Made by a program: the position numbers and the translations under genes
Notes under the pieces: generated by a model
What the model saw: only the letters and a program-made list of their open reading frames with translations
Told to the model about the DNA's origin: nothing
Databases searched by the model: none
Shown here: positions 2,067 to 33,457 of the stretch, piece by piece
How the letters are laid out: each line of letters opens with the position of its first letter
How positions within the stretch are numbered: the first letter of the stretch is position 1
NCBI GenBank assembly: GCA_025153775.1
Contig: JAOALC010000002.1
Location: 1 to 64,000 of the forward strand
Reading direction: 5' to 3'
Length of the DNA: 64,000 bases
Source: SAR92 clade bacterium H231
Lineage (GTDB): Bacteria > Pseudomonadota > Gammaproteobacteria > Pseudomonadales > Porticoccaceae

Positions 2067-3413
2067 TCACACATTGAGCAATAAATACTCTCGCTCCCAA
2101 GAAGAAATAACTTGGTTAAATTCCTCAAATTCCATCAATTTAATTGAGGTGTAAAGCTGAATAAATCGCTCTCCAAACAGTTTTTCAATGTCAGGATTTT
2201 CATTAAGTCCACGCAGTGCCTCCTCCAATGTTCTGGGCAGTGTGAGTGCCTCCTCGTAGGCATTCCCTTCATAGGGTGCAGAGGGACTTATTTTATTTTT
2301 CATGCCGAGGTAACCACAGGCCAATGTAGCTGCAATAGATAAATAGGGGTTGACATCCGCTCCTGGCAAGCGATTTTCGATGCGGTAGTTTTTAGGACTC
2401 GCATCCGGAATTCTTAATCCAGTTGTACGGTTGTCATAACCCCAGTGCAGATTAATAGGTGATGATGATACCCCACGAGAAAACCGTCGATAGGAATTAA
2501 CATTAGGTGCAAAGAAACTGATTACATTGGGTATGTACTTTTGTAGTCCACCTAAATAATGAAAGAATGCCTCACTATAGTCGCCTTCTTTGGTGGCAAA
2601 AATATTCCTGCCATCGACACTTGAGAGAAGACTCTGGTGAATATGTTTTGCAGACCCGGGTTCTGACTTCATTGGCTTGGCCATAAAGGTTGCGTAAATA
2701 TCATGTTTCAGTGCAACCTCACGAACCATTCGCTTAAAAGTAAAGACCTGATCAGCTAGCTCTAAGGGGTCACCATGAATAAAGTTAACCTCAAACTGAG
2801 CGGCACCAGATTCATGGATGAGGGTATCGATATTGAGACCCATTGCTTCTCCATAGTTGTACATATCCTCTATAAAGGGTTCATATTCATTAGTAGCATC
2901 AATGCTATAAGATTGCCGCGCAGTCTCTGGCCGACCACTGCGCCCAAGGGGCGACGATAAGGCCATATCTGGATTAGTGTTGCGCTTAACAAGATAGAAT
3001 TCCATTTCTGGCGCAATAACCGGAGTCAGGTTATCTTCCTTATACAGCGAAAGAATATGCTTCAATACTGCCCTGGTACTAAATGGATGCGGCTCTCCAT
3101 TTTTGGTGAAGCAGTCATGAATAATCTGCCCTGTGCTTTCGTTAGCCCAGGGTACCGTGCGCTTAGTCTTTGAGTCAGGCTCCAAAAGCATATCGCCGTC
3201 TATGGTTTCGAGGAGCTCCCAGTAATCATCCGAGTACTGCCCGGTGACCGTTTGCGCAAGTATACCCTCAGGCAGTCGGCTGTCCTCTTTGAGGAATTTT
3301 TTGGCAGGAATAAATTTCCCTCGAGCATTGCCAGTCATATCTGGCACTAAACATTCGACTTCGGTAATTTTATTTTCCTCAAGCCAGATTTTGATTTCCT
3401 GCTGTGACTGCAT
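2067..3413 (-). CDS. puuA: Glutamine synthetase family ligase, gamma-glutamylpolyamine synthetase-like
   Basis: At 448 residues this matches the short glutamine-synthetase-like ligases such as PuuA, which join glutamate to putrescine or other amines using ATP. The beta-grasp N-domain starts with 'VECLVPDMTGNARGK'; the metal-binding segment 'PEMEFYL', the catalytic core 'HESGAAQFEVNF' and 'GSAKHIHQSL', and the ATP-side segment 'NRTTGLRIP...YRIENRLPGADVNPYL' are all present. No adenylylation-type C-terminal loop is evident, as expected for this subfamily. It lies directly downstream of a copper amine oxidase, an aldehyde dehydrogenase and an acyl-CoA ligase, a context of amine degradation that favours an amine substrate over ammonia. 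The specific amine is inference. Confidence 0.82.
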   Translation of the reverse strand: MQSQQEIKIWLEENKITEVECLVPDMTGNARGKFIPAKKFLKEDSRLPEGILAQTVTGQYSDDYWELLETIDGDMLLEPDSKTKRTVPWANESTGQIIHDCFTKNGEPHPFSTRAVLKHILSLYKEDNLTPVIAPEMEFYLVKRNTNPDMALSSPLGRSGRPETARQSYSIDATNEYEPFIEDMYNYGEAMGLNIDTLIHESGAAQFEVNFIHGDPLELADQVFTFKRMVREVALKHDIYATFMAKPMKSEPGSAKHIHQSLLSSVDGRNIFATKEGDYSEAFFHYLGGLQKYIPNVISFFAPNVNSYRRFSRGVSSSPINLHWGYDNRTTGLRIPDASPKNYRIENRLPGADVNPYLSIAATLACGYLGMKNKISPSAPYEGNAYEEALTLPRTLEEALRGLNENPDIEKLFGERFIQLYTSIKLMEFEEFNQVISSWEREYLLLNV

Positions 3414-3534: not shown

Positions 3535-5556
3535 TTAATCGGGCACATCTAATGCTGGATTCCTGTCGAAGAAATTGCGAGGTTTTAACACAATCTCATC
3601 CACTTTTGCAGGCATGACTGGCCAGTCTTCGGCCATGGGTACATGGTGGAATCCAATCGTGGGCCATGCGACCAGATCAGCATTCTTTACAGACTCATTG
3701 TCAGCGGCATAAAGGGGTAAGCCAACACCTGGGGCCGACTGGTTAACAGCAATCCCCGTTGAGAAGATCTCATCGCGCTTATATCTGGTGACCCATAGAT
3801 TATTCTTTAGAAAGCCTGCCCGCTGGTAGATAGGATCTTGCAGGGTTACCAGCGGACGAATATTGGGAAACATCAGTTGGTAAGATGCGGGATAACCCAT
3901 CTTGTTTGTCACGGATGCACTCGAGAAAGTCAATAAGGCAGGTTTCTCCACTCGCATGGTCGTGCGTGCCTGTTGCTCGTTTTCAACCTTCTCTCGGGTC
4001 ACCGCCCAGATGGCTTGGCGATCGGCATTTTCAGGTTGGGGGACGGCTGTTAGTCGCTGCCGCTCAAAATTATTCTCAACACCATCGACATCCATATCAA
4101 TTCGATAACTGAAGAAATGATCATGGTTAACTCCCAAGCGATAAGGCGCTATAAGCGTACCGGTCTGAGTTTCCGCATCGGCGGTTGGGTCTGACAATTT
4201 TGCCGCGAAAACACCTTTGGTCGCGTCGATACCTGTTGATATCAGACGGATACGAACTCGTCCGTCCTGCTGGAAAATATAATCTTGGAAGTAATCATAA
4301 TTACCAATAACCGCAACCATGCGGAGCACTAGATTGGTAGCGCGACGGGAGTTATGTTTTTCAATGCCCGGAACGCCCTCATACAGCGACTCATAATGTC
4401 GCCAGCTGGGATAGCCCGGATCAAATTCAAAGATACAGATGCGATTAGGGGCGACAACGGGTTCACCAGCTGCGGAGTGCAGCATCACATCTTGATATAC
4501 AGCGTTGGCTGGACAATCATTGCCTTTAAGCTCCGTGGCCATATTGCCAAACCCATACTCTCCCATATCGAAGTACGCGCGGTAAAACCAGTGAATATCT
4601 GGATCTTGGTAGGGCACAACCATTTCAGACATTGCAATCTCATAGGCAACTGACCGGAACCCTCGTTCAGTAATAAAGCCAATATTATTCAGGATCGTCC
4701 CTTGCCGTGGATCAAATCGGAGATGGAATCGCCAGTTCTGCCAATCGACTTGACTGCCCGTAATGGAGAAGTTTCGTCCTTCATTTTGACTGATAGTGAT
4801 AGGTTTGAGCCGCTCCCTTGTATCGAGGGCCGAGGGGTGAAACTCAATAACCTCGAAGTCGCTTGGTGGCGCCTCGACGCCGACAAAGGAATCAGTGATT
4901 TCAATCAGTCGTAACTCCTCGACATCGAATAAAATACTGATCCCCTCAATAGGGCGCGCGAATGCGCTGGTTGTGGGTAAGATACCCATGCCGCTCTGAC
5001 CGCGGATATTAAAGCAGTCAAACCTTACAAGACGGTCGTTTATTGGATCAGCAAGATCAGAGAAAAATCGCCCCACTGTGCGCGGAAGACAGAGCCCATC
5101 ACCTGAACTGACGCCTCGTTGCTCTAGTACCTCTCTTACCTCTGGTAGTTCATTCACAAGCTCCAATGCCGTATACAGTTCTTGTCCCACCAGCATGGGT
5201 TGCCCTCTGGTGAGGAGGGCAGGAGATGACAGTTCGGAGGTTTGGAAATCGTATCTCACCCGATACGATAACTTATCTAACCTGTAGAGCACGTCTGCTC
5301 CACGCGCGGCATTGGTATCAGTCTGCCATGAGAGCGCTTGAGATTTATCGGGCTCCAATAAACTCATCCGATTAAAGACCAAAGTGCCATCTACTGACTC
5401 AGTAACGGCCGCTGCAACCTCCCGTATCTCTTCAGCAGTTAGTGAATGCCAAGGTGACAGCGTACTTTTATCGGTCAAATCGGCTTGGTATTTCTCCGGG
5501 GTACAGGCAGCAAGCAGCGTAAGAGAAATACCAAGTGCTATGTGCAATGACTTCAT
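3535..5556 (-). CDS. Lipoprotein copper amine oxidase (TPQ-dependent)
   Basis: This enzyme oxidises primary amines to aldehydes with release of ammonia and hydrogen peroxide. The topaquinone precursor is the first tyrosine of 'GNYDYF' (about residue 420 of 673), the catalytic-base aspartate is in 'YRAYFDMGEYGFG' (about 330), two copper histidines are in 'HDHFF' (about 478 and 480), and the third is in 'GFHHVPMAEDWP'. The start at 5556 has an AAGGAAA ribosome site and gives a lipoprotein signal ending in 'LLAAC', so the protein is predicted to be lipid-anchored. An upstream-extended frame would overlap the aldehyde dehydrogenase and is rejected. The gene follows that dehydrogenase by 22 bases, which suits an amine-to-aldehyde-to-acid route, although the oxidase would act in the periplasm. 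Confidence 0.9.
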   Translation of the reverse strand: MKSLHIALGISLTLLAACTPEKYQADLTDKSTLSPWHSLTAEEIREVAAAVTESVDGTLVFNRMSLLEPDKSQALSWQTDTNAARGADVLYRLDKLSYRVRYDFQTSELSSPALLTRGQPMLVGQELYTALELVNELPEVREVLEQRGVSSGDGLCLPRTVGRFFSDLADPINDRLVRFDCFNIRGQSGMGILPTTSAFARPIEGISILFDVEELRLIEITDSFVGVEAPPSDFEVIEFHPSALDTRERLKPITISQNEGRNFSITGSQVDWQNWRFHLRFDPRQGTILNNIGFITERGFRSVAYEIAMSEMVVPYQDPDIHWFYRAYFDMGEYGFGNMATELKGNDCPANAVYQDVMLHSAAGEPVVAPNRICIFEFDPGYPSWRHYESLYEGVPGIEKHNSRRATNLVLRMVAVIGNYDYFQDYIFQQDGRVRIRLISTGIDATKGVFAAKLSDPTADAETQTGTLIAPYRLGVNHDHFFSYRIDMDVDGVENNFERQRLTAVPQPENADRQAIWAVTREKVENEQQARTTMRVEKPALLTFSSASVTNKMGYPASYQLMFPNIRPLVTLQDPIYQRAGFLKNNLWVTRYKRDEIFSTGIAVNQSAPGVGLPLYAADNESVKNADLVAWPTIGFHHVPMAEDWPVMPAKVDEIVLKPRNFFDRNPALDVPD

Positions 5557-5578: not shown

Positions 5579-7009
5579 CTATACCGATGTTTTATTAAGT
5601 GTTGTGGTTTGCCAGTTGGTATATTCCATAAGCCCATGCAGTGAATTTTCGCAGCCCAACCCAGACTGCTTGTGGCCACCAAAAGCCTGGAAAGGCGAGT
5701 ACTGATGAATTTCATTGAGCCAAACAGTACCAGCTTCAAGTTGGCTACCGACCCTCTCGACTGCCTCAAGGTCTTTCCCCCACACTGAGGCACCAAGCCC
5801 ATAAATCGTGTCATTAGCCCGCGCAATCACATCAGCCTCATCAGACCATTTTAGCAATGGCAGAATAGGACCAAAGGGTTCTTCGACTACAATACGAGAG
5901 TTGTCTGGTGGGTTATCGACCAATGATACTGGCACAAACCAACCGGGCGCACTCTCATCGATTTCACCACCAAGGGCAAATTTATAACCATTGGCGTGAC
6001 AGTCTGAGAAGTAATCTTTCACCTTGCCATACTGCATGGAGTTCTGGATTGGCCCCAAATCAGTATCAGCTTCAGTGCCATCGCCTACTTTGATATTGAT
6101 GGCAATAAAGTCGGCCAGAGCATCACGCACCTCTTCGTAGATATCCTCATGGATATAGAGGCGTTTGATAACATTGCAGAATTGGGCATTGTTCTGGAAG
6201 GCACCCCAAAATAGATGTTCTGCGAGGGCTTTAGGGTCGGCATCTGGCATCACAATTGCTGGATCATTACCGCCTAATTCCAAAGTCACGCGCTTAATGG
6301 TATCTGCTGCCGAGCGCATAACATGACGCCCGGTCTCCGTTGACCCTGTAAAGGCAATCTTATTGATATCAGGGTGCACAGTCATCCATTTACCCAACTC
6401 ATCACCACCACTTAGTGCACTGAGGACACCAGCCGGAAAAACCTGCTGCGCCAACTCAACAATTTTAAGATCACAGAGCGGCGTGTAGGGGGAGGGTTTT
6501 ACAATAATGGAACAACCGGCCATAAGGGCCGGCGCAATCTTCCATATCGCCAATAGAATGGGGAAATTCCAAGGCACAATAGCCCCGACCACACCTACCG
6601 GCGTCATTCGAGTCACAACTCGTCGTTCATCGGTATCCTCAATTCCCTCTTCTGGCAACCGTTGAGTCGCTATCCCACGCAGCCAGGCGATAGCGCCAAA
6701 TACTTCAAACTCTGCACCAGCTCTTGGCTTGCCCTGCTCTCTTGTCAAAAGGCTCATAATGTCTTCGGCATTTGCTTCAATAAGATCGGCATAGGCCTCT
6801 AAGGCTGCTTGGCGCTCATCAGTTGAGGTCTTACTCCACAGATTAAAAGCCTGACGTGCTGTGCTAACAGTCTCATCAAGCTGTGCTCTGGATGCGTCAG
6901 GAACCTGTGCAAATACTGATCTGGTCGCAGGGTTATAAACAGGTAAAGTGTTTTCAGTTGTCACCATTTGACCATTGATAGTCATGGCGAAATCTTCATG
7001 TATTTTCAT
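5579..7009 (-). CDS. NAD(P)-dependent aldehyde dehydrogenase
   Basis: A 476-residue aldehyde dehydrogenase superfamily member that oxidises an aldehyde to the acid. The catalytic glutamate motif 'TLELGGNDP', the nucleophile cysteine in 'NNAQFCNV', the 'PWNFPILLAIWKIAPAL' segment and the 'FTGSTETGR' cofactor loop are all visible. It begins at an ATG with a GGGGAT ribosome site. It lies 22 bases upstream of the copper amine oxidase, so the two are probably co-transcribed, and aldehyde produced by amine oxidation is the likely substrate. No cysteine or glutamate is missing. The exact aldehyde is not determinable from sequence. Confidence 0.88.
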   Translation of the reverse strand: MKIHEDFAMTINGQMVTTENTLPVYNPATRSVFAQVPDASRAQLDETVSTARQAFNLWSKTSTDERQAALEAYADLIEANAEDIMSLLTREQGKPRAGAEFEVFGAIAWLRGIATQRLPEEGIEDTDERRVVTRMTPVGVVGAIVPWNFPILLAIWKIAPALMAGCSIIVKPSPYTPLCDLKIVELAQQVFPAGVLSALSGGDELGKWMTVHPDINKIAFTGSTETGRHVMRSAADTIKRVTLELGGNDPAIVMPDADPKALAEHLFWGAFQNNAQFCNVIKRLYIHEDIYEEVRDALADFIAINIKVGDGTEADTDLGPIQNSMQYGKVKDYFSDCHANGYKFALGGEIDESAPGWFVPVSLVDNPPDNSRIVVEEPFGPILPLLKWSDEADVIARANDTIYGLGASVWGKDLEAVERVGSQLEAGTVWLNEIHQYSPFQAFGGHKQSGLGCENSLHGLMEYTNWQTTTLNKTSV

Positions 7010-7093: not shown

Positions 7094-8617
7094 TCAGGCA
7101 TCCAGCGTTTTTAACTCTCTACGCATCACCTTGCCGGTACTAGTTGTGGGTAAGTCATCAACAAACTGTACAGCTCTTGGTACCTTGTAGGCCGCCAAAT
7201 GTTCACGGCAATAGGCGATGACACTCTCGCTATCTGGATTGGCGCCGGTTTTGGGTACAATGTAGGCCTTGGCCAACTCTCCTTTGGCTTCATCGGGAAT
7301 ACTCCCCACCGCCACCACAGCAACATCAGGATGACCAGCAATAATTCGCTCGATCTCGGCGGGATACACATTAAAGCCAGCGGTGAGAATCATGTCTTTC
7401 TTGCGATCGACAATAAATATGCAACCATCTTCATCTATGGAGGCCAGGTCTCCTGTATGCATCCAACCATCTGGCTCAATGGTCTCTTTAGTTGCCTTCT
7501 CATTGCCATAGTATCCCTGCATAACAATGCCGCCTTTTATCATCAATTCACCCACTTCCCCCGTAGGCATTGTGATGCTGACGTCTTCAGTATCGGTGAT
7601 ACGAACTTCTGTGTAAGGTAATGCAGTACCAATAGAGCCGTGTTTGATTGGGCCATTGGCGGCGAATGTTGTTCCCAACCCGCCCAATTCTGTCATACCC
7701 CATACTTCAATCAGAGGGCAACCAAACCGCATCTCTACTTCTTCCATTTTTGGTTTCGGCATGGTCTGGCCACCGACAGTGCAACAGCGCAATGACGACA
7801 AATCATAGTTGTCGAGCTCTGGGTCATTGAGCATAAACATGTACATAGTGGGCACACCCTCAAAACGCGTCGCCTTGTGGTCTTGAATGCTCTGCATTAT
7901 CGCCTTTGGTTCAAACGCGGCATGCAGCACCAGAGTCATTCCATTCTGTATGGCGGAGCTCATTACCACATTGCCATAGACATGGGCGCAGGGTAATGCG
8001 ATAACCACCTTATCTAGCTCACTACGCTGATGCATCAGGGTGGTTATAGCAATATTCATCAGAATACTCTTATGGGACAGGCAAGCCCCCTTTGGGAATC
8101 CAGTGGTCCCAGAGGTGTAGCAGATAGTAGAAAGGGAATCAGTATCAATGGCATCGACAGTGAAATCGTCATTACTGTTAATGAGAATTTCATTGAAAGA
8201 TAATAGGCCTTCGGGAAGAGCCTCATCTCCAAAGACAATAATATCTGTTACCTGAGACTTGTCCTTCACTCCCTGGAGAGGCAGTGCTTTTTCATAGGAG
8301 GCGATCACAACTGAGGCACCACAATCACTGGCAACAAATTCAACTTCCACTGGCGTGAGCATGACATTAATGGGGTTGATTACCGCACCCATTTTAAGGG
8401 CACCATAATAGCTAACCACCCATTCCCAACAGTTTCCCGAGTACAGAGTTACCCTATCCCCGGGCTTTACGCCGAGGCCGACCAGCGCGTTGGCGAAGCG
8501 GTTTGTCAGATCCTCTAATTCGTTGTAGGAAATAGACCGATCCGGCAATATTAGTGCCGTCTTGTCTCCAAAGCGCTTCGATGCCTCGAGCGGGATACTA
8601 CCAATTGAACTAAGCAT
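7094..8617 (-). CDS. Acyl-CoA ligase, AMP-binding family
   Basis: A 507-residue ANL-superfamily enzyme that activates a carboxylic acid through an acyl-AMP and then forms the CoA thioester. The phosphate-binding loop 'YTSGTTGFPKG' and the 'WGMTELGG' segment are canonical; the hinge region 'TGDLASIDEDGCIFIVDRKKD' and the C-terminal catalytic lysine in 'TSTGKVMRREL' are intact. There is no signal peptide, so it is cytoplasmic. It is upstream of the aldehyde dehydrogenase (84 bases) on the same strand, which would allow the acid made from an amine-derived aldehyde to enter CoA-dependent breakdown. The chain length or aromatic nature of the substrate is not evident. Confidence 0.87.
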   Translation of the reverse strand: MLSSIGSIPLEASKRFGDKTALILPDRSISYNELEDLTNRFANALVGLGVKPGDRVTLYSGNCWEWVVSYYGALKMGAVINPINVMLTPVEVEFVASDCGASVVIASYEKALPLQGVKDKSQVTDIIVFGDEALPEGLLSFNEILINSNDDFTVDAIDTDSLSTICYTSGTTGFPKGACLSHKSILMNIAITTLMHQRSELDKVVIALPCAHVYGNVVMSSAIQNGMTLVLHAAFEPKAIMQSIQDHKATRFEGVPTMYMFMLNDPELDNYDLSSLRCCTVGGQTMPKPKMEEVEMRFGCPLIEVWGMTELGGLGTTFAANGPIKHGSIGTALPYTEVRITDTEDVSITMPTGEVGELMIKGGIVMQGYYGNEKATKETIEPDGWMHTGDLASIDEDGCIFIVDRKKDMILTAGFNVYPAEIERIIAGHPDVAVVAVGSIPDEAKGELAKAYIVPKTGANPDSESVIAYCREHLAAYKVPRAVQFVDDLPTTSTGKVMRRELKTLDA

Positions 8618-8689: not shown

Positions 8690-9406
8690 CTATTCCGAGC
8701 TACTGGTTTTTTTGAATTCAAAGCCCATAGCAATAATCGCAATTATTAGTAATAAAGAAATACCTAAAAAAGAAGCTTCTATATCCACCGTGGCTATTTC
8801 CGACGCCCACAAAGCCACCAGCATTAATTGATATATAACACCAAACAGACCCAGCGTGACTGAGGCAAGTTTGGTTGCCAAAGACAAGCTAAACAGCGGT
8901 TTTGCGACGAGCAGAGCAAACAATGAATACAGCCAGAAACCTAAATAATCGAAAGAGGTATATAACGAAAAAGGCACAGATACGTTCAAGATTCTCAGTA
9001 GCGAATCGGCCAGCTCAGCGCCTGATGCGGCGGTTGAAATGGTGTCGGCGAGAATGGGAATGGTCCATACAGCAATAAACTTAGGGATAATAAATGCCAT
9101 GACCGACATCAGCACCACCATAGCAGCAATCATGGCCAATAGTGGACTAGTGCTGCCAACCCGCCAGGCAATAGCAAAAAACGCTCCGGATAGACTCAGC
9201 ATAGCGACAATCTGATTGACCCAGCCGGCAATAAATAATTCTCTGTTATTGCTGAGCCAGGCCACCCGGTCCGCATGCTCAACCGCATAACCGTTTGGTG
9301 CGTCCAAAGGAAGATAGAGACTAATAATCGCCGTGACTATGACAACGAAAACCGACCAAAAGCCCAGCCTGTTAATACTGTTGTCCAGTGAAGAAAAAAT
9401 ATCCAT
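8690..9406 (-). CDS. Polytopic membrane protein of unknown function (DUF4386-like)
   Basis: A 238-residue, strongly hydrophobic protein with about six membrane segments (first near residues 16-32, last near 212-230) and short charged ends. I do not recognise a catalytic motif; the overall pattern resembles DUF4386-type membrane proteins, but that is a weak match made by eye. The ATG has an excellent GGAGG ribosome site. It is the first gene downstream of an inverted repeat at 9524-9539 that matches the one in front of the SpdH-like operon, so it may be controlled by the same TetR protein and lead the transcript running into the acyl-CoA ligase, aldehyde dehydrogenase and amine oxidase genes. 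Confidence 0.6.
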   Translation of the reverse strand: MDIFSSLDNSINRLGFWSVFVVIVTAIISLYLPLDAPNGYAVEHADRVAWLSNNRELFIAGWVNQIVAMLSLSGAFFAIAWRVGSTSPLLAMIAAMVVLMSVMAFIIPKFIAVWTIPILADTISTAASGAELADSLLRILNVSVPFSLYTSFDYLGFWLYSLFALLVAKPLFSLSLATKLASVTLGLFGVIYQLMLVALWASEIATVDIEASFLGISLLLIIAIIAMGFEFKKTSSSE

Positions 9407-9523
9407 GTTTGCCTCCGCATTAATTGTAAAAATTGTTTGTATAACCTACGGAAACGGCAGTTTGGAGATTACACTGAGAGCTTGCACACAACTGTTAGAA
9501 ACGACTCAATGGATATCCTAGGG

Positions 9524-9539
9524 CATGTCGAGTGACATG
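9524..9539. promoter_or_regulatory. Putative TetR operator 2
   Basis: Inverted repeat CATGTC-gagt-GACATG. It shares 14 of 16 bases with the repeat at 15295-15310 (CATGTCG-N2-TGACATG). It lies about 118 bases upstream of the membrane-protein gene and between that gene and the end of the tetR gene. The repetition of an unusual palindrome within one gene cluster that encodes a TetR protein is the evidence; binding is inferred. Confidence 0.55.
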
Positions 9540-9692
9540 TAAAGCGCCTTTAGACAAACAAAGAACAAACAAATTCAGGTAAGACTGATTTGTCTCTTAT
9601 CTGCGCAAGCGGGCACAACAGGATTGATTAATTCTTGTATCTGCCAACAATAGATGACTAGGCGTCAGAGGCAGATGAGTGAAAAAGAGGTG

Positions 9693-10253
9693 TTAGGCGT
9701 CACCGCCATAGAGTTTATCGACCAGATCATAGACTACCGAGCGAATCTTAGAGTCATCATTTTCCCAACGTTTGCCCGGGGCAACAAAAATGGTTGATCC
9801 CTCTACGAAAGCCATCAGACTAATAGATTCAACGCGAGGATTCTTACTTCCAGCCTTGTGTAGTAAACCCTCAAGAATCTGTAAATATTCAGCATATATA
9901 TCTTCAACCAGATCGGCCACTAATGGCTCCACCTGACCCATGGCCCAGAGTTGTGGCCAAAGTTTATCCGCCTGTAACCTGCCATCTGCTGGTTCCGACG
10001 AGGCGAATTCCAAGACCCCTTTGATAGTTAGCGGCTCATTAGCTTTTATAGCATCAAAATTGCTGTGGTATATGTCAGCGATATAAGCCACCAACGCACG
10101 CAACATGTCTTCTGAGGTTCGGAAGTGATATTGCAAAGCACCTAGCTTAATACCGCTGGCTCGAGCTAGGGCCCGCATGCTCAGGCTGCCATAGCCCTCA
10201 TCAACAATAATATCAACTGCTGCCTGTAATACCTGCTGTTTGCGCTCACTCAT
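9693..10253 (-). CDS. TetR family transcriptional regulator
   Basis: A 186-residue TetR-type repressor. The N-terminal helix-turn-helix is clear ('VLQAAVDIIVDEGYGSLSMR' then 'ARASGIKLGALQYHF', about residues 8-48), followed by an all-helical ligand-binding domain. The open frame could begin one codon earlier at TTG; the ATG at 10253 is preferred. It lies 93 bases downstream of the ferric-reductase-like gene and is on the same strand. Two matching inverted repeats nearby (9524-9539 and 15294-15311) are good candidate binding sites, so it probably represses the SpdH-like operon and the membrane-protein/acyl-CoA-ligase transcript. The inducer is unknown; an amine or aldehyde is a guess from context. 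Confidence 0.88.
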   Translation of the reverse strand: MSERKQQVLQAAVDIIVDEGYGSLSMRALARASGIKLGALQYHFRTSEDMLRALVAYIADIYHSNFDAIKANEPLTIKGVLEFASSEPADGRLQADKLWPQLWAMGQVEPLVADLVEDIYAEYLQILEGLLHKAGSKNPRVESISLMAFVEGSTIFVAPGKRWENDDSKIRSVVYDLVDKLYGGDA

Positions 10254-10346: not shown

Positions 10347-11003
10347 TTAAAGCTGTGTTTGGCAAGTTGATTTGCGGGCAGCTATTATACGGCGCGACTT
10401 AATATTGGCAGCGAGGCGCAAAATGAGTGCCAGCAATCCGAGAAGAGCAAAGACAACATCGATTGTCTTTGCATTTTGACTTAGGGCCTGTTCGGCATAA
10501 CTCACCCAGATCGCCGCCCAGAAGTACCAGATACCGATCAGATGTAGCCAATGCCATTGGGCGCGGCTCATCTTTCGACGCACCGGGAGAAATGAAGTAA
10601 CGGTCAACGCCAACAAGAAGATATAGCTGAGACTGCGCCCCAAAAGATCGCTCGCCTTATGCAGGTCATCCCAGTAATGGGCTGGATATAACGTTAGCAA
10701 CACTGCGATAAAGACTGCCTGCCAGCCAAATCCAGCTGCAAAGGACAGGCCCGTATAACGACGGTTTCGCAACAACCACTTTGTAATAGCATTTGGGAAA
10801 AGCGTCACCAGAGCAGATGTCACAAAGGCGATATATATCCAAGGAGAGGCAAACTGCACAGATAGACGTATCAACTTGACCGTGGCTTCAGGCGAAGAGA
10901 TACCTATGATCAGCATCCCGGCAACCATACCGCCAAGGGTCAAGCCCGCGATCAAATAAAAGAGCGGCCAACCATTCAAAACTCTGTGTTGCAGCAGACT
11001 CAA
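10347..11003 (-). CDS. Ferric-reductase-like transmembrane heme protein (putative)
   Basis: A 218-residue membrane protein with about six hydrophobic segments. A histidine in 'WHWLHLIGIWYFW' and an earlier histidine near 'LYPAHYWDDLHKASDLLG' fit the layout of the ferric-reductase-like / MsrQ (YedZ) membrane heme family, though this was judged by eye. The start is TTG and overlaps the stop of the upstream SpdH-like gene in a TTGA arrangement, indicating translational coupling. Being coupled to a Tat-exported flavoprotein suggests it passes electrons between that enzyme and the membrane quinone pool, as MsrQ does for MsrP. That role is inference. Confidence 0.6.
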   Translation of the reverse strand: MSLLQHRVLNGWPLFYLIAGLTLGGMVAGMLIIGISSPEATVKLIRLSVQFASPWIYIAFVTSALVTLFPNAITKWLLRNRRYTGLSFAAGFGWQAVFIAVLLTLYPAHYWDDLHKASDLLGRSLSYIFLLALTVTSFLPVRRKMSRAQWHWLHLIGIWYFWAAIWVSYAEQALSQNAKTIDVVFALLGLLALILRLAANIKSRRIIAARKSTCQTQL

Positions 11004-12871
11004 CTGACCACTTCTCGCACAGCACGAATAGACGCATCAATCGCTGACTGCACGTAGGCATAGGCCTCAGAGTCAGAATTGGCAATACTGATTCTGCCGA
11101 AGGGCTGCCGTCCAAGCTCATGGGGTGCCTGTCCCGGCTCCCAGCGCGGATCATGAAGATCCATATATTCATAAGCATAGCCATGGGACCAACGATTAAT
11201 AGTAATAGCCTCAATATCGCGATCAGCATCAAAACCGGCCTCACCAAACATACCGCTGAGCTGAGTACGAATTTGCTGCTCATAGTCAGCAAATGAGGCG
11301 CCCATTATGTTGTGCCTGCCAAGCCGACAGAGATCGCGCGCAGACAGATTACCATCGCCCTCTGGCGCTGGCATATGCAACATATACATCACCATGGGGT
11401 CTTTGGGTTTGGTTGAAACCTGGTAAGCCCCCAAATTTACCGGCGGCGCGTGGGTGACCAACTCAAAAAAGCTATCAGCACAGACATACAGAGATGCGCC
11501 ACTTTTACGCACCGGCTCACTGGATTTAAGTACTACATTGGCACAGATAAAAGGAACCTTCGAACCATAGGCTAGGTTTTCTTTTTGCGTCTCAGGTAGG
11601 TCTGGGCAGAGATGTGGAATCATGCCGTTGTATCCCGCAAGGATGCAATGCCTTCCCTGCACCCTAAAGGCGCGATCGCCAGACACATAGGAAATATCGA
11701 CCAGGTCTGAGCCCCTATTGGCAACATTAACCACCGTGCTATTTAAACGAATGCGCACTGGAGCGTCTTGCAAATCCAATTGGGAATAATCAAAACGACT
11801 GGCAACCAGCTCCTCCATTGAATCGGCGCCCGCCACCTGGGGGATAAGTTTATTCACAAATAGTCTTGCCACAGAGGCGTTACCATCTGGGAAAATAGGT
11901 GAGCGGTATGCGTTGGGATCTTCTGGCACATCAGACTCCCCATCTGACTCTGGGAAGCCCATGGCGTTGGCCCCAGGTGCTCCCAACTCGATTGCTTCCA
12001 TAATGGATGCACTGCTAATACCTACGCCCCATATAGCTCGAACCCAGGGTTCTGTTAATTTGGCGCCCTGCCTGGAGAGGCCAACTCGTTCATTGAGGAA
12101 GGTGGCATAGGAAGTGCTGCGCATGTAGGTTTCTTTATCGGACAGGGGAATATCCGGCAAATAGTCTTTCTCACCACTGACCAGAGCAATCAGACGGCTA
12201 GTGTCAGTCTTTGATAAATCCAGTGACTTAATCATGGCTTTATAGTCACCAGCACCAGCCCATATGGACCCCCAATCACCTGGGATAATAGTATCTTTGC
12301 CATACAGATTTTTATTCAAATAGATACCATAGGGCGCGGCTGCGTTTGACAGGCCATAGTCATCTGGGCCTGCATCTTGCAGCGCTTTGAAGTCAACACC
12401 AATATCTTCAAGAACCTGATAAGCACCAGCGCTAAAAGCTGACTGCTCGAGGTTGAGACTACCGCCAGGACTCAACAACATTTTGCCCGAAGACTCAAAT
12501 TCATTGCGCTTTGCATGGCCACCGAAATCATCATGGTTATCCAGCACTAGAATCTTTACATCGGGTCCCATTTGCTGCTTGTAGAGATAAGCCGCAGACA
12601 GACCGCTTATGCCGCCGCCCACAATCACCAGATCATAAAGTTCATCCACTGGCTCATACTTATCAGGTCTCTGCCCCCCCATAACCAGAGCGTGAGCGAC
12701 TTCAAAGGACCCTTTATGGCTTCCGCGCATGCCTGTTAGCAGTGGCGGATAATACTCTTTGCCCTTAGCTGTGGTGCCGAATGCCAGAGAAGTGTAGGGA
12801 GCAAGAGCCGTAGCCGCCACAGATAGCGCGGCACCATTTAAAAAATCTCGTCTGGTTATTTTATCTCTCAT
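11000..12871 (-). CDS. Tat-exported FAD amine dehydrogenase, SpdH-like (copy 2)
   Basis: A 623-residue flavoprotein resembling Pseudomonas SpdH, a periplasmic spermidine dehydrogenase. A twin-arginine signal is present ('ITRRDFLNG', arginines 7-8), followed by an alanine-rich hydrophobic stretch. The FAD dinucleotide site 'IVGGGISGLSAA' is at about 83-94, and the typical 'LDNHDDFGGHAKRNEF' follows. The C-terminal block with 'FGRISIANSDSEAYAY' is shared with copy 1. The frame allows a TTG one codon earlier; the ATG at 12871, six bases after the cupin stop, is preferred. It shares its domain plan with copy 1, so the pair looks like an old duplication. The substrate may be spermidine or another amine; identity is not proven. 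Confidence 0.78.
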   Translation of the reverse strand: MRDKITRRDFLNGAALSVAATALAPYTSLAFGTTAKGKEYYPPLLTGMRGSHKGSFEVAHALVMGGQRPDKYEPVDELYDLVIVGGGISGLSAAYLYKQQMGPDVKILVLDNHDDFGGHAKRNEFESSGKMLLSPGGSLNLEQSAFSAGAYQVLEDIGVDFKALQDAGPDDYGLSNAAAPYGIYLNKNLYGKDTIIPGDWGSIWAGAGDYKAMIKSLDLSKTDTSRLIALVSGEKDYLPDIPLSDKETYMRSTSYATFLNERVGLSRQGAKLTEPWVRAIWGVGISSASIMEAIELGAPGANAMGFPESDGESDVPEDPNAYRSPIFPDGNASVARLFVNKLIPQVAGADSMEELVASRFDYSQLDLQDAPVRIRLNSTVVNVANRGSDLVDISYVSGDRAFRVQGRHCILAGYNGMIPHLCPDLPETQKENLAYGSKVPFICANVVLKSSEPVRKSGASLYVCADSFFELVTHAPPVNLGAYQVSTKPKDPMVMYMLHMPAPEGDGNLSARDLCRLGRHNIMGASFADYEQQIRTQLSGMFGEAGFDADRDIEAITINRWSHGYAYEYMDLHDPRWEPGQAPHELGRQPFGRISIANSDSEAYAYVQSAIDASIRAVREVVS

Positions 12872-12877
12872 CAATCA

Positions 12878-13321
12878 TTACTCTTCGCCCGCCAACCAGG
12901 CTTTGGTTTCAATAATAATCATCTCTCGAAACTTAACGGGCATATCCCAGGTTCCCTGCCAACCTTTTGGCACAAGAAAGGTATCACCCGCCTCATAGGT
13001 CTGCTTTTCGCCGGAGAGGGAAGTAAGGATAACCCTACCTTCCAGGACAGTGACAAACTCGTCATAGGAAAAGGGATAGCTTACATCTATCAGAGCAGCC
13101 TCGGATTCATATAGCGCGACCACAAAATCACCCTGATGCATGACTTTTTGCCAATGCTCATTGGCGCCTGATAGGACCACACCTTCGGGCCAGGGTGGAA
13201 TTGACTCCAGCTCAGCACCCTTCATAACCTCTTTATTGAGCGGCAAAACAGAAATTTCCCCATGAGCGGGCATCACTACAGTAGCCATAATAAACACTCC
13301 AAGTAAGTATAATTTTTTCAT
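12878..13321 (-). CDS. Periplasmic cupin-domain protein
   Basis: A 147-residue protein starting at 13321 (ribosome site AGGAC) with a signal peptide ('KKLYLLGVFIMATVVMPAHG'). The rest is a single small beta-barrel cupin: 'YPFSYDEFVTVLEGRVILTS' followed by 'YEAGDTFLVPKGWQGTWD', which resembles the DUF861/EutQ-like cupin_3 group. A longer upstream frame would overlap the SpdH-like copy 1 and has no signal peptide at its start, so it is rejected. It lies between the two SpdH-like genes, 41 bases after one and six before the other, and is almost certainly in the same transcript. A role in handling amine-derived product or as an accessory of the dehydrogenases is inference. Confidence 0.78.
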   Translation of the reverse strand: MKKLYLLGVFIMATVVMPAHGEISVLPLNKEVMKGAELESIPPWPEGVVLSGANEHWQKVMHQGDFVVALYESEAALIDVSYPFSYDEFVTVLEGRVILTSLSGEKQTYEAGDTFLVPKGWQGTWDMPVKFREMIIIETKAWLAGEE

Positions 13322-13362
13322 TTTTTTGTCCTGTGTCAGTGTGAAAAGTTGGTTAAAACAAG

Positions 13363-15273
13363 TTAAGCAGACTGCTCTTGCACAGCGCGCCAAGCTGCAT
13401 CAAAAGCCGCCTGCATCAGCGGTATGGCCTCTGAATCAGAATTGGCAATTGAGATACGTCCAAATTGTGCCCGGCCAATCTCATGGGGTGCATGCCCCTC
13501 ATCCCAGTCGGGATCATCAAGCCCTAGATAAGAGTAGGCATAACCATGGGGGATACGATTAACTGTAATTGCCGTTATATCAGTCTCATGATTAAAGCCA
13601 TACTGACCCAGCATTCCCTGAAGCTGATCGCGAATCTGCTGCTCATAGTCTTTAAATGGTGTGCCATAAATCTTGTGGCGACCCAGCCTAAATAGCTCAC
13701 GCGCAGGCATACCTTTAATATCCGCTGGCGTAGGTGAGGCCATCATAAATGCTGCCATCGGCCGGTCGGGACTCTGGGGTGGCTGATAGCCCCCTGATGT
13801 CACCGTGGGCGCAGCACTCACCCATTGAAAAGGATCATAGGGACATTGAGTAAAAGTCGTGTCAAGCCCAGCAAAGGCTCGACCATTTTTTAGCAGCACA
13901 TTGGCATAGACAAAGGGGACCTTCACACCGTAGCTCAACCCCTCTTTCTGCTGATCACTCATCTCAGGGCAAAGATGTGGAATAAGTCCGTTGTAACAAG
14001 CGAGAATACAATGGTCTGCACTGATACTAAGAGGCTGACCTTTCTCAACATAATCCACCCTTACATGATTGAGAGCTGTCTCTTTAACTCCTACCACCGT
14101 GCTATTGAGCCTCAAGCGAGTCGAGTTATCGTCAAGGTCCAAAGCCTCATAGTTAAAGTTTGAAATGGCAACATCCTCAAATCCCTTCATGGCCGGAGCC
14201 ACATTAGGAATTAACTTGTGGACCAATAATCGGGCAACCGATGCATTGCCATCGGGAAACATATAGGCCACAGGAGCGTCCCCTAAAACAAACCCGCCAG
14301 CCAGATCACTGAGCCGATTGGTCAACCAGCCCATAGCTTTTAATCCAGGACACCCAACACTCAAAGCTTCAAGGACCGTAAGGTTCCACCCAGCTGGGCC
14401 CAATAAAACACGGGTAAAAGCCCCCAGTATGGGCAAGGTTTCTTCAGCTAAACCAACACGCTCAGTCAAAAATTGGTTATAACTAACGGACTTCACGTAT
14501 CTGTATTGCTCCAAGAGAGACAAATCATCTAGGAAGTCTCGATCACCACCGAAAAAGGCTATCAACTTAGCTTGCTCTTCCTCAGGTATGGGCAACTCTT
14601 TAACCGCCGCGCCATATCCTTGACCTCCATGGAAAAACCCTAACCAATTACCACTTAGGGTTTTATGGCCACCAGCAGTAGGAATCGTCATACCATTACT
14701 GGCGGACATTTTACCACCGAGCATATAATCATCAGGCGTATTGGCTGTCATTGCAGCTAGAGCCTGATCGTCAATACCTATATCTTTTAATAATTCAATC
14801 GCCATTGCGCTATATGACGACATAGGCTCGATATTTTGAGCCCCACCCAAACCAAGCACCATATTCCCGTCTTGGTGAAATTCATTGCGCTTGGCATGCC
14901 CACCAAAGTCATCGTGGTTGTCCAGCAGCAGTATTCTTGCAGTAGGGCCCATCTTCTTTCGATAATACCAGGCAGCGGCAAGACCACTCTGCCCAGCGCC
15001 CACAACCACCAGATCATAGTGCTCATCTAATTCTTCATAACTGGACGGTTTTTGCCCATTCCAAGCTAGTGCATGAGCAACCTCATAGGATCCTTCATGA
15101 CTACCGCGCATACCAGTAAGTGTCGGCGGATAATAGTCGCCGGGAAGTTTGCTAGAGGCTAATGACGCAGTTGTCTGCCCTATAACCTGCCCGGGCATTA
15201 ATAGGCCTGCACCAGCACCAGCACCAATAGCCATACCATTTAAAAAATCCCTGCGTGTAATTTTTAAGGCCAA
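13363..15273 (-). CDS. spdH: Tat-exported FAD amine dehydrogenase, SpdH-like (copy 1)
   Basis: A 636-residue flavoprotein closely resembling Pseudomonas spermidine dehydrogenase SpdH, which oxidatively splits spermidine in the periplasm. Visible features are the twin-arginine motif in 'KITRRDFLNG' (arginines 7-8), a glycine/alanine-rich h-region, the SpdH-type block 'YYPPTLTGMRGSHEGS', the FAD site 'VVGAGQSGLAAA' (about 90-101), and 'LDNHDDFGGHAKRNEF' (117-132). The start codon is TTG, preceded by an AGGA ribosome site seven bases upstream. It is the first gene of a four-gene operon (this gene, cupin, copy 2, ferric-reductase-like). A TetR-type inverted repeat overlaps its predicted promoter. 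Spermidine as substrate is by family resemblance only. Confidence 0.82.
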   Translation of the reverse strand: MALKITRRDFLNGMAIGAGAGAGLLMPGQVIGQTTASLASSKLPGDYYPPTLTGMRGSHEGSYEVAHALAWNGQKPSSYEELDEHYDLVVVGAGQSGLAAAWYYRKKMGPTARILLLDNHDDFGGHAKRNEFHQDGNMVLGLGGAQNIEPMSSYSAMAIELLKDIGIDDQALAAMTANTPDDYMLGGKMSASNGMTIPTAGGHKTLSGNWLGFFHGGQGYGAAVKELPIPEEEQAKLIAFFGGDRDFLDDLSLLEQYRYVKSVSYNQFLTERVGLAEETLPILGAFTRVLLGPAGWNLTVLEALSVGCPGLKAMGWLTNRLSDLAGGFVLGDAPVAYMFPDGNASVARLLVHKLIPNVAPAMKGFEDVAISNFNYEALDLDDNSTRLRLNSTVVGVKETALNHVRVDYVEKGQPLSISADHCILACYNGLIPHLCPEMSDQQKEGLSYGVKVPFVYANVLLKNGRAFAGLDTTFTQCPYDPFQWVSAAPTVTSGGYQPPQSPDRPMAAFMMASPTPADIKGMPARELFRLGRHKIYGTPFKDYEQQIRDQLQGMLGQYGFNHETDITAITVNRIPHGYAYSYLGLDDPDWDEGHAPHEIGRAQFGRISIANSDSEAIPLMQAAFDAAWRAVQEQSA

Positions 15274-15293: not shown

Positions 15294-15311
15294 ACATGTC
15301 GTCTGACATGT
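15294..15311. promoter_or_regulatory. Putative TetR operator 1
   Basis: A perfect inverted repeat ACATGTC-gtct-GACATGT, ending 21 bases upstream of the TTG start of the SpdH-like copy 1 gene. It shares its core with the site at 9524-9539. It overlaps a candidate -10 hexamer at 15308-15313, so binding would block transcription. The sites look like targets of the TetR protein encoded at 9693-10253. Confidence 0.62.
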
Positions 15312-20054: not shown

Positions 20055-21395
20055 TTAATTGATTTTATCCAGCACTAGCCTCACTGAGTCAAACATACTG
20101 TGAATATCATCGGGCTTGGAATTTAGAAAAGGGGAAAACTGCAGTATATCCATACCATTGCGAATCACTAGATCCTGATCCCAGAAGCAGTGCTTGTGGG
20201 CATCCAAACCCCGGGCACCGGGGGCGCCTTCTCTGGGTGCCAATTCAATGGCACCCATCAGGCCGAAATTGCGCACATCGATTACCATGGGGTGATCATC
20301 AAACTGATGAATGGCCTCGGCAAACATTGTCTCCAGCTCCCGAGCTTGGTCGAAACTACCCTCTTCCCTGTAGACATCCAATGTTGCCAGCCCTGCTGCA
20401 GCTGCTACTGGGTGGCCAGAATAGGTATAGCCATGGAACAGCTCTATGCTCTGTTCAGGGCCCTGCATAAAGGCCTGGTAAATAGCATCTGTAGCCAGCA
20501 CCGCACCCATGGGGATTACTCCATTGGTCAGGCCTTTGGCGGTGGTAATCAGATCTGGGGTGACACCAAAGCGCTGGGCTGCAAAGGGAGCGCCAACCCG
20601 GCCAAAGGCAGTGATCACTTCATCAAAAATTAATAATATGCCGTGCTTGGTGCAGATTTCTCGCAGCCGCTCCAGGTAGCCAACCGGCGGTGGCAATATA
20701 CCTGTGGAGCCGGGCACTGGCTCTACTATAACGGCGGCAATGGTGCTGGCATCGTGCAGGGCCACCAGATGTTCTAGCTCTTCGACCAAATGAGCACCCC
20801 ATTGCGGCTGACCATGGCTGTAGGCGGCATGTTGTAAATTATGAGTGTGAGGCAGATGGTCGACGCCATTGATTAAATTGGCGCTAAACATTTTGCGGTT
20901 GGGGGCAATGCCGCCGACGGAAATACCACCAAAGTTAACACCGTGGTAGCCACGCTGGCGACCAATTAATCTGGTGCGGCTGGCATCCCCCTTTGCCCGA
21001 TGATAACCCAGAGCAATTTTTAGGGCGCTGTCCACAGACTCCGATCCGGAGTTGGTAAAGAAGGCGTGATCAAAGCCTTCGGGGGCTAGGTTGGTGAGTT
21101 TGTCTGCCAGTTCAAAGGCTTTGTTGTGGCCCAACTGGAAGCCCATACACAGATCTAGCTCGCCCACCTGCTTTTGCACGGCCTCGACAATTTTGGGGTG
21201 GCAGTGGCCTATACCAGATGTCCAGAGCCCGGAAAAACCATCGTAGATTTTGCGACCATGGTTGCTGATGTAATGGTGGCCCTGAGCCGAGGCAATTAAC
21301 CGCGGCGACTGCTTGAAGTCCCGGTTGGCGGTAAAGGGCATCCAATAGGCGTCCATGGCCTCGGCTGATGGTTGGTGGGATGGCTGGTTTTTCAT
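20055..21395 (-). CDS. bauA: Omega-amino acid--pyruvate (beta-alanine) aminotransferase
   Basis: A 446-residue class III PLP aminotransferase that resembles beta-alanine:pyruvate transaminase, which turns beta-alanine into malonate semialdehyde. It begins 'MDAYWMPFTANRDFKQSPRL', with the WMPFT segment typical of omega-aminotransferases. 'NSGSESVDSALK' binds the phosphate, 'IFDEVITAFGR' contacts the ring, and the Schiff-base lysine is in 'ITTAKGLTNG'. It is divergent from an XRE-cupin regulator, with a palindromic operator between. Spermidine breakdown yields 3-aminopropanal and then beta-alanine, so this gene complements the SpdH-like cluster. The amine specificity cannot be proven from sequence. 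Confidence 0.85.
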   Translation of the reverse strand: MKNQPSHQPSAEAMDAYWMPFTANRDFKQSPRLIASAQGHHYISNHGRKIYDGFSGLWTSGIGHCHPKIVEAVQKQVGELDLCMGFQLGHNKAFELADKLTNLAPEGFDHAFFTNSGSESVDSALKIALGYHRAKGDASRTRLIGRQRGYHGVNFGGISVGGIAPNRKMFSANLINGVDHLPHTHNLQHAAYSHGQPQWGAHLVEELEHLVALHDASTIAAVIVEPVPGSTGILPPPVGYLERLREICTKHGILLIFDEVITAFGRVGAPFAAQRFGVTPDLITTAKGLTNGVIPMGAVLATDAIYQAFMQGPEQSIELFHGYTYSGHPVAAAAGLATLDVYREEGSFDQARELETMFAEAIHQFDDHPMVIDVRNFGLMGAIELAPREGAPGARGLDAHKHCFWDQDLVIRNGMDILQFSPFLNSKPDDIHSMFDSVRLVLDKIN

Positions 21396-21571: not shown

Positions 21572-22120
21572 ATGGACAGTGAAACTGGCCCTCGCTTAAA
21601 AGAGATTCGCAAAAAACTTGGCCTCTCCCAGCGGCAGCTGGCCAAGGCATCTGGTGTGGCCAATGCCACTATTTCTCAAATTGAATCTGGGGCCTTAAAC
21701 CCTACTGTGGGCATGCTTAAAAAGGTTCTGGGAGGTATTCCCATCAGCCTGAGTAATTTTTTTGCCGATGATTTTAGCTTTTCCGATCAGGTGTTTTTTA
21801 GTGCTGACAAACTCCTGCAACTGGGTGAAGGCGGGGTGTCTTATCTACAGGTGGGCAACCATTTGCACAATAAGTCGATTCAGATGATGAAGGAGTGCTA
21901 TCAGCCTGGAGCTCACACCGGGAAGCATGCGATTCAGCATGAGGGGGAGGAGTGCGGAATTATCCTAAGTGGTTCGCTGGAGGTGCAGGTAGGGGACGAG
22001 AAAAAAATATTAAAGGCTGGTGATGCCTATTATTTCAAAAGCTCTGTGCCCCACCATTTTAAAAATGTGGGGCGCGATCCCTGCGAGTTAATCACGGCCT
22101 GCTCGCCACCGAGCTTTTAA
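21572..22120 (+). CDS. XRE-cupin transcriptional regulator, PuuR-like
   Basis: A 182-residue regulator: an XRE helix-turn-helix ('LKEIRKKLGLSQRQLAKASGVANATISQIESG', residues 9-40) plus a C-terminal cupin (about 110-180, 'EGEECGIILSGSLEVQVGDE' and 'GDAYYFKSSVPHHFKN'). This is the arrangement of PuuR, the repressor of putrescine utilisation, and related amine/amino-acid regulators. It is divergent from the bauA-like aminotransferase with a palindrome between, so it most likely controls that gene and itself. The small-molecule signal (putrescine, beta-alanine or similar) is not determinable. Confidence 0.85.
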   Translation: MDSETGPRLKEIRKKLGLSQRQLAKASGVANATISQIESGALNPTVGMLKKVLGGIPISLSNFFADDFSFSDQVFFSADKLLQLGEGGVSYLQVGNHLHNKSIQMMKECYQPGAHTGKHAIQHEGEECGIILSGSLEVQVGDEKKILKAGDAYYFKSSVPHHFKNVGRDPCELITACSPPSF

Positions 22121-31223: not shown

Positions 31224-31562
31224 TTAGTGACGTTCTGACACCATATTAATGGTGTACCTGGGAATCTCAACCACCAGATCTTTGTCTTCCATAATTACCT
31301 GACAGCTAAGACGGGAATCCGGGTCTACACCCCAGGCCTTGTCGAGAAAGTCCTCTTCTAGCTCGTCGGCTTCGGGCAGGTCGTCAAAGCCCTCGCGAAC
31401 ATGCACATGGCAGGTGGTGCAGGCGCAGGACATTTCACAGGCATGCTCAATTTCCAAACCATTGCGCAGGGCCGCATCACAGATGCTTTCCCCCGGCTTG
31501 GCTTCAACCACTGCACCCTCTGGGCAAATTTCATGATGGGGCAAAAATACAATTTTAGGCAT
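31224..31562 (-). CDS. fdx: ISC-type 2Fe-2S ferredoxin
   Basis: A 112-residue adrenodoxin-like ferredoxin that donates electrons during iron-sulfur cluster assembly. The cluster ligands are in 'CEMSCACTTCHVHV' and the fourth cysteine is in 'SRLSCQVI'. It lies 8 bases after hscA and upstream of iscX in the standard order. Confidence 0.97.
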   Translation of the reverse strand: MPKIVFLPHHEICPEGAVVEAKPGESICDAALRNGLEIEHACEMSCACTTCHVHVREGFDDLPEADELEEDFLDKAWGVDPDSRLSCQVIMEDKDLVVEIPRYTINMVSERH

Positions 31563-31570
31563 CTTAGATA

Positions 31571-33457
31571 CTAACCTTTTTCAATTTCATCTAATGACTG
31601 GCCGGCCAGTGCAGTTTTAATACTGGCATCCATCCGTCGGGCGGCAAATTCTTCACTGGCTTTGGCCACAGATTCAATCTGACGCGCCAGCACCCGGTGC
31701 TCTGTGGTGCTCTCTCTCAGTTCTCGCAGCTCCTGTATGGCGACCTGTAGACAGCGCTGCTCCTCTTTATCTAACAATGCCTCTCCATCTTTATAGATAG
31801 CCGCGAGCAAATCTTCAACCATACGGTCCGCTTCAACCTGCTGCTCTCGCAGCGCTCGGGCCTGCATATCGTCGCGAGCATGGCTAAAGGAATCTTGCAG
31901 CATGCTAGTGATTTCATCTTCGCCCAGACCATAGGAGGGTTTAACCTCAATGCGAGACTCTACATTACTGGTTAACTCCCGCGCTGACACACTGAGCAAG
32001 CCATCGGCATCTACCTGATAGGCAACACGGATTTTTGCCGCACCGGCAACCATGGGAGGAATGCCGCGCAGTTCAAAGCGCGCCAGGGATCGGCAATCAC
32101 TGGCCAGCTCTCGCTCGCCTTGCAATATATGAATAGCCATGGCGGTTTGGCCATCTTTAAAGGTGGTAAATTCCTGGGCTTTGGCCACCGGAATGGTGGT
32201 ATTTCTATGGATAATTTTTTCGATCAAGCCACCCATGGTCTCTATTCCCAGAGACAGGGGAATCACATCCAGCAACAGCATGTCGTCGCCAGATTTATTG
32301 CCTATCAATACCTCAGCCTGAAGCGCGGCACCCATGGCCACTACCTGATCTGGGTCCAGACTACAGAGGGGCTCAATACCAAACAACCCAGCGACTTTTT
32401 CACCGACTCTGGGGGTTCTGGTGGAGCCGCCGACAAGAATCACATCATTGATTTGGCTCTGGTCTACGCCGGCATCGCGCAGTGATTTTTTGCAGGCTCT
32501 CAGGGTTTTATCAATCAACCCATCGATCAGGCTATGCATTAGGTCTCTGGTTAAAGCGCCCTGCCAGTCCAGCACTTCCAGCTCCACCTGTTCTGACTCG
32601 GTAAGCTCTTCTTTGGCTGACTTGGCGGTCTCCAGTAAAATACGCTGCTCTATAGGGTTAAGGTCTTCACCCAGTCCCATCTGCTGGCGCAGCCAGTCGG
32701 CAATGGCATGGTCAAAGTCATCGCCACCCAGCGCAGAGTCGCCGCCGGTGGCCAGCACTTCAAACACGCCTTTGGACAGGCGCAGTATACTGATATCAAA
32801 GGTGCCGCCGCCCAGATCATAGATAGCGATGATACGTTCCTGGTCTTTGGCGTCCTGATCAGCTTCATCCAGCCCATAGGCGATAGCGGCGGCTGTTGGC
32901 TCATTGAGCAGGCGCAATACTTTAATACCGGCCAGAGTGGCGGCATCTTTGGTGGCCTGACGCTGGGCTTCATCAAAATAGGCGGGAACTGTGATCACGG
33001 CGCCATCCAGGGCGCCGCCAAAGGCAATTTCGGCCCGACCAGCCAGTTTGCGCAGTATTTCTGCGGAGACTTGAATCGGGCTAACCATCCCAGAGACAGT
33101 TTTAATTTTTGGCATACCGCCATCGTCGGCAGCAAATTCGTAGGGCAGCTGGCTGCCAAAGGTTTTGATATCAGCCAGACCACGGCCCATTAAACGCTTG
33201 ACCGATGCCAATGTATTGAGTGGATCACTGATATTGTGCTCCGCCGCTTCATGGCCCACACAGCTGACGCCCTCTTTGATGTAATGCACTACAGATGGCA
33301 GCAGATCGCGGCCCTGCTCATCTGCCAGTACTTCCGCCATACCACTGCGCACAGTGGCTACTAAGGAGTTGGTGGTGCCCAAATCTATGCCCACCGCATG
33401 TTTGCGCTGATGGGGCTGGGGAGATTGGCCCGGCTCTGAGATTTGCAGTAGTGCCAC
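31571..33457 (-). CDS. hscA: Fe-S assembly chaperone HscA
   Basis: A 628-residue Hsp70-type chaperone specialised for IscU. It starts '[17 protein letters not shown]' and has the ATPase motifs '[15 protein letters not shown]' and '[14 protein letters not shown]', then '[14 protein letters not shown]' and the beta-sandwich substrate domain after '[14 protein letters not shown]'. The start codon is GTG. It lies four bases after hscB, its co-chaperone, and before fdx. Confidence 0.97.

Follow-up and report, generated by a model that had tools for sequence, protein, structure and literature searches.

The 64,000-nucleotide window analysed here, the start of contig JAOALC010000002.1 from the SAR92 clade bacterium H231, carries on its minus strand a compact unit of four genes that combines two SpdH-type flavoproteins, a small cupin and a ferric-reductase-like membrane protein (MP). 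An earlier note on this DNA had already described these genes, and the list of open reading frames (ORFs) confirms them at the same positions. SpdH-A (13363–15273, 636 aa, listed start TTG) is followed after a gap of 41 bases by the cupin (12878–13321, with the best start an ATG at 13321) and, 3–6 bases further, by SpdH-B (11000 to 12874 or 12871, 624 aa). The gene for MP (10347–11003, 218 aa) then overlaps the end of the SpdH-B gene, as the note had stated, by the four bases TTGA. The cupin belongs to Pfam family Cupin_3 (43.2 bits against a cut-off of 23.5), which supports the cupin of the earlier description; its export is probable, the signal-peptide-like N-terminus being recognized by inspection. 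These four genes are half of a larger unit, and a TetR gene, two candidate operators and a second operon lay outside the earlier description.

Both flavoproteins are members of the SpdH family exported by the twin-arginine translocation (Tat) pathway, in agreement with the first description. They match the deposited SpdH structures over nearly their full length (phmmer, E=9.9e-125 over residues 4–633 of SpdH-A and E=1.2e-135 over residues 6–622 of SpdH-B), pass the cut-off of the Tat model TIGR01409 (21.2 and 17.6 bits, respectively, against 16.7) and hold the FAD (flavin adenine dinucleotide) binding motif PF13450 (41.3 and 41.9 bits against 21.9). The solved member of the family is the enzyme from Pseudomonas aeruginosa which, according to its published account (PMC12564564), contains FAD together with a heme b that His54 and His562 bind at the protein surface, passes electrons from the reduced FAD to this heme, and has its heme reduced by spermine. 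These two ligands align with His67 and His576 of SpdH-A, and both axial histidines are kept in all 41 full-length SpdHs aligned from the loci of MP relatives, including SpdH-A and SpdH-B (8 of 49 ORFs were shorter and were excluded). Since each has a Tat motif and the two histidines that bind heme b in the P. aeruginosa enzyme, SpdH-A and SpdH-B are probably periplasmic FAD/heme b flavocytochromes. The electron path within each of them probably ends at its own surface heme, so that the outlet heme would already lie inside the enzyme, a point that the earlier note missed.

The substrate of these enzymes may be other than spermidine, since two residues of the deposited structures are not conserved. 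Counted from the alignments of SpdH-A and SpdH-B to these structures, residue 282 is Asp in 7D9F and Ala in the variant 7D9I; SpdH-A has Val at this position and SpdH-B has Ala. Residue 443 is Tyr in SpdH and Ala in the variant 7D9J, and is Tyr in SpdH-A and Cys in SpdH-B. In the alignment of the 41 SpdHs, which is loose around these positions, Asp is found at the first position in none and Tyr at the second in 16, SpdH-A among them. The D282/Y443 pair that would mark a spermidine dehydrogenase (EC 1.5.99.6), if the deposited variants are a guide to the role of both residues, is thus absent from both proteins. SpdH-A and SpdH-B are 46% identical and fall into two separate clades (support 1.0 and 0.94), each spanning several genera, which points to an old pair kept together. 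SpdH is uncommon in the class as a whole, with matches in 3 of 369 genomes scanned at E 1e-40 (at most three candidates scored per genome).

MP reaches no Pfam cut-off, and its assignment comes from structure and profile comparison. The predicted model (predicted local distance difference test, pLDDT, 90.4) has the six long helices expected of a ferric reductase domain, a comparison with VIA-align agrees with this fold, and profile alignment gives a probability of 99.9 to relatives that carry the heme histidine and of 97.2 to MsrQ-like proteins, both sets being hits of the MP profile. The ferric-reductase-like membrane fold proposed earlier is therefore borne out by the model. As described in PMC11031084, the ferric reductase domain superfamily is characterized by paired heme histidines in transmembrane helices (TM) 3 and 5. 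In MP, the TM3 position is occupied by glutamine (W94-Q95), and this replacement is found in all 80 loci examined, which are the best 80 of 122 MP relatives, many of them ending early at contig borders; it also holds for the 15 loci recovered solely by a pattern that leaves this residue free. The TM5 histidine is kept in 72 of the 80 loci and is Gln in the other 8. The earlier note had taken MP for a putative heme protein and had tied this view to a histidine pair; with Gln at the TM3 position throughout the 80 loci, the pair is missing and the view is not supported. MP of this kind is uncommon in the class too: among the 21 matches to the MP profile in the same 369 genomes, the Trp-Gln motif is found in the MP of the window alone (L064 is absent from their alignment). 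MP thus seems to have the fold of a heme protein that has lost the residues holding the heme. Ligation through other residues was considered and rejected: histidine occurs in at least 12 of the 80 sequences at columns 6, 106, 109, 115, 144, 149 and 154, of which only column 154 is near-universal (72/80), the others lying off the TM3 ligand positions. A possible fusion of MP to another domain was also discarded, as the 745-aa frame of G511 contains an MP that runs from start to stop over 244 aa and is flanked by independent DUF481 and M19 genes.

The gene following MP encodes a TetR-family regulator (9693–10253, minus strand; Pfam TetR_N, 35.6 bits against 24) and lies between two palindromes, ACATGTCGTCTGACATGT at 15294–15311 upstream of SpdH-A and GCATGTCGAGTGACATGT at 9523–9540 upstream of the gene for a second membrane protein (MP2). 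Their common pattern, RCATGTCNNNNGACATGY, occurs exactly, without mismatch, at two places in the whole 2.93 Mb genome, compared with none for the reversed control pattern. When one mismatch is allowed the counts are 3 and 2, near enough to the control that only the exact sites carry weight, and a third palindrome (C1:10011, one mismatch, upstream of a TonB receptor gene) is accordingly set aside as chance level. A slightly looser pattern, fixed beforehand from the window, was used for the 80 loci: 15 sites occur in 9 of 19 cluster-carrying loci chosen by hand (220,775 bases) and none in the other 10, with a single site across the remaining 61 loci (900,229 bases). The sites precede spdH, TetR, MP2, acyl-CoA ligase, MP and hydrolase genes, and one is located at the start of a cupin gene; in L079 a site precedes an amino-acid permease-like gene, and one site in L080 has no gene start within reach. 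The two palindromes are candidate operators to which TetR would bind, in which case the two operons of the locus (15273–9693 and 9406–748) would make up a single amine-catabolism regulon under TetR control.

The second operon, also on the minus strand, starts with MP2 (8690–9406), a conserved membrane protein without a Pfam family, and continues with an AMP-forming acyl-CoA ligase (7094–8617; AMP-binding, 299.8 bits), an aldehyde dehydrogenase (5579–7009; Aldedh, 481.4 bits) and a copper amine oxidase (3535–5556; Cu_amine_oxid, 406.8 bits). Copper amine oxidases are oxygen-dependent enzymes; the N-terminus of this one, starting at 5556, is lipoprotein-like, with a lipobox (LLAAC) recognized by inspection. 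The last two genes code for a glutamine-synthetase-family ligase (2067–3413; Gln-synt_C, 344.3 bits, below the NCBIfam cut-offs), which is possibly gamma-glutamylating, and for a beta-lactamase-fold serine hydrolase (748–2100; Beta-lactamase, 107.2 bits), whose true start is probably later than listed. A gamma-glutamylputrescine (Puu) pathway was considered and rejected, the synthetase model scoring 183.8 bits against a cut-off of 650. MP2 homologues are found within 10 kb of MP in 11 of the 80 loci, and MP2 is also found with SpdH genes in places that lack MP (7 of 20 SpdH stretches of relatives). The window contains a second amine-related locus, where the gene of an omega-aminotransferase, AptA (20055–21395, minus strand; 685.9 bits against 500), adjoins a divergent helix-turn-helix-cupin regulator (21572–22120, plus strand).

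The four-gene composition is also found in other genomes. Two SpdHs, a cupin and MP occur together in 8 of the 80 MP loci (one of them, L084, has only a fragment of the first SpdH, where the contig ends), and the four-base overlap between SpdH and MP genes recurs in both orders, with SpdH first in L078, L084 and L092 and MP first in L101 and L137. Because both the composition and the overlaps recur, the arrangement is more than chance. An SpdH ORF is present within 0.5 kb of MP in 19 of the 80 loci, within 3 kb in 31 and within 10 kb in 36. Among these best 80 of 122, the nearest named loci belong to metagenome-assembled genomes (MAGs) of Cellvibrionales (94% for MP) and Porticoccaceae (87%), and the cluster is present in the named marine strains Pseudohalioglobus sediminis NY5 and HTCC2148. 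In strain NY5 (L092), a divergent spdA is followed by TetR, MP2, an aldehyde dehydrogenase, a TonB receptor, the cupin, spdB, MP, an acyl-CoA ligase and an aldehyde dehydrogenase.

Several variants of the MP neighborhood were seen during this survey. L080 (same contig as G024 C86) and L081 contain an operon of acyl-CoA ligase, aldehyde dehydrogenase, MP and serine hydrolase genes, with two tandem palindromes ahead of the ligase and no SpdH; their hydrolase, adjoining MP, is an 85–86% identical orthologue of that in the window. L081 is labelled Planktomarina, an alphaproteobacterium, and is perhaps a mis-binned contig because its layout is the same as that of L080. In 10 loci (L104, L110, L123, L125, L129, L145, L149 and L152–L154), MP is immediately preceded by a small divergent ORF of 80–102 aa (cluster 14). 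Neighborhoods with CrtO-like and GcvT-like genes are exemplified by L103, L110–L112, L118, L124, L130 and L157; some loci of this kind include a DAO-family oxidase, and the related L046 additionally has a MOSC gene.

The explanation favored here, although tentatively and with somewhat less than even confidence, is that of a TetR-controlled amine regulon in which periplasmic SpdH flavocytochromes cooperate with a heme-free MP acting as a scaffold for docking or quinone reduction. It builds on the gene set, the palindromes, the Tat motif, the heme ligands and the modelled MP fold with its lost histidine pair, and proposes from there the binding of TetR, the substrate, the direction and route of the electrons, and the parts played by MP, the cupin and MP2. 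The two Tat-exported SpdHs would oxidize amines in the periplasm, where the FAD of each would accept the electrons and pass them on to the surface heme b on its two conserved histidines, while primary amines would fall to the copper amine oxidase. The aldehydes formed would be converted to acyl-CoA by the aldehyde dehydrogenase and the acyl-CoA ligase. MP would dock SpdH at the membrane or offer a quinone site, so that the heme b of SpdH itself would reduce the quinone, and a heme relay of the MsrQ kind through MP is unlikely. Generalized beyond this locus, the same idea would describe a "borrowed-heme" electron entry module, in which a heme-less ferric-reductase fold docks a partner whose surface heme b reduces the quinone. 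Such a module, which we consider rather improbable at present, would be used in marine Gammaproteobacteria by SpdH flavocytochromes and perhaps also by further flavoprotein dehydrogenases.

The main rival to the favored explanation, possible if doubtful, holds that MP is a general membrane factor, with a role in assembly, stability or transport, that serves several catabolic clusters, and that the electrons of SpdH go to a soluble cytochrome c or to other acceptors. It is favored by the other companions of MP, by the SpdH genes without MP and by the cytochrome c gene next to SpdH in Duffyella, all described below. No SpdH ORF is present within 10 kb in 44 of the 80 MP loci, with the early contig ends mentioned above; conversely, MP is found in none of the 20 SpdH stretches of relatives (21 of 52 SpdH matches, selected for their distance from known MP genes), nor near SpdH in any of the 5 plasmid records inspected out of 11. 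MP without a nearby SpdH and SpdH without a nearby MP mean that the dedicated partnership proposed in the earlier note is not supported. Furthermore, MP has other companions: CrtO-like flavoproteins and a GcvT-like gene in 18 of the 80 loci, OYE-type flavoproteins in 6, and, in G042 and G511, the DUF481 and M19 dipeptidase genes between which it sits. In Duffyella gerundensis, a triheme cytochrome c gene on plasmid pEM01 (L188:6898–8097) starts 10 bases past SpdH and is likely to form an acceptor pair with it; in the window, the one cytochrome c candidate is a single-motif frame of 118 aa at 31224–31580, far from the locus. Against a general factor stand the enrichment of Gln-type MP beside SpdH relative to its His-type sisters, and the four-base overlaps in both gene orders.

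The view of the earlier note, that MP is a heme-binding, MsrQ-like electron acceptor dedicated to the SpdHs, now appears highly improbable. The fold, the weak match to the MsrQ profile (E=0.0019), the adjacency and overlap with SpdH and the single TM5 histidine retained in most loci agree with it, but the TM3 ligand is Gln throughout, Gln also replaces the TM5 histidine in 8 loci, the profile score of 17.7 falls far from the cut-off of 130, and the 44 MP loci lacking a nearby SpdH argue against any dedicated role. Least probable of all is that the SpdH-like proteins are oxidases using oxygen and making H2O2, with heme b a remnant or protective: a copper amine oxidase in the same regulon would suit it, but the heme ligands are retained in 41 of 41 SpdHs and the P. 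aeruginosa enzyme transfers electrons from reduced FAD to heme b.

No account of electron hand-over from SpdH-type enzymes to the membrane was found in the literature searched, nor any paper on this gene set among titles and abstract openings, a coverage from which subscription journals are largely absent. The locus offers a defined, probably co-regulated candidate for the membrane partner of SpdH-type flavocytochromes and, if MP works heme-free, the ferric-reductase fold alone can serve quinone or docking chemistry. The presence of the cluster in named marine strains makes these ideas testable, and they bear on marine amine turnover.

Among known systems, the closest is SpdH from P. aeruginosa (PDB 7D9F–7D9J), with which the window proteins share near full-length homology, the Tat motif, the FAD Rossmann motif and both heme b histidines. 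They differ from it at residue 282 (Asp there, Val and Ala in SpdH-A and SpdH-B) and, for SpdH-B, at residue 443 (Tyr there, Cys here), and the locus adds two paralogues, a cupin, MP and a regulon. The SpdH of Duffyella gerundensis is similarly encoded next to a possible electron acceptor; there, however, the neighbor is a c-type cytochrome, while here it is a membrane protein without a heme histidine pair. MsrP-MsrQ likewise pairs a ferric-reductase-like membrane protein with a periplasmic redox enzyme, but MP lacks the histidine pair, its score of 17.7 against the 130 bits of the MsrQ equivalog model leaves it outside that family, no molybdoprotein (the MsrP partner) is encoded among the scanned window neighbors, and electrons here would run from the enzyme to the membrane. 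Contrary to the ferric reductase domains of STEAP and NOX proteins, MP has Gln in place of the TM3 heme ligand and, with 218 aa, comes without an NAD(P)H domain.
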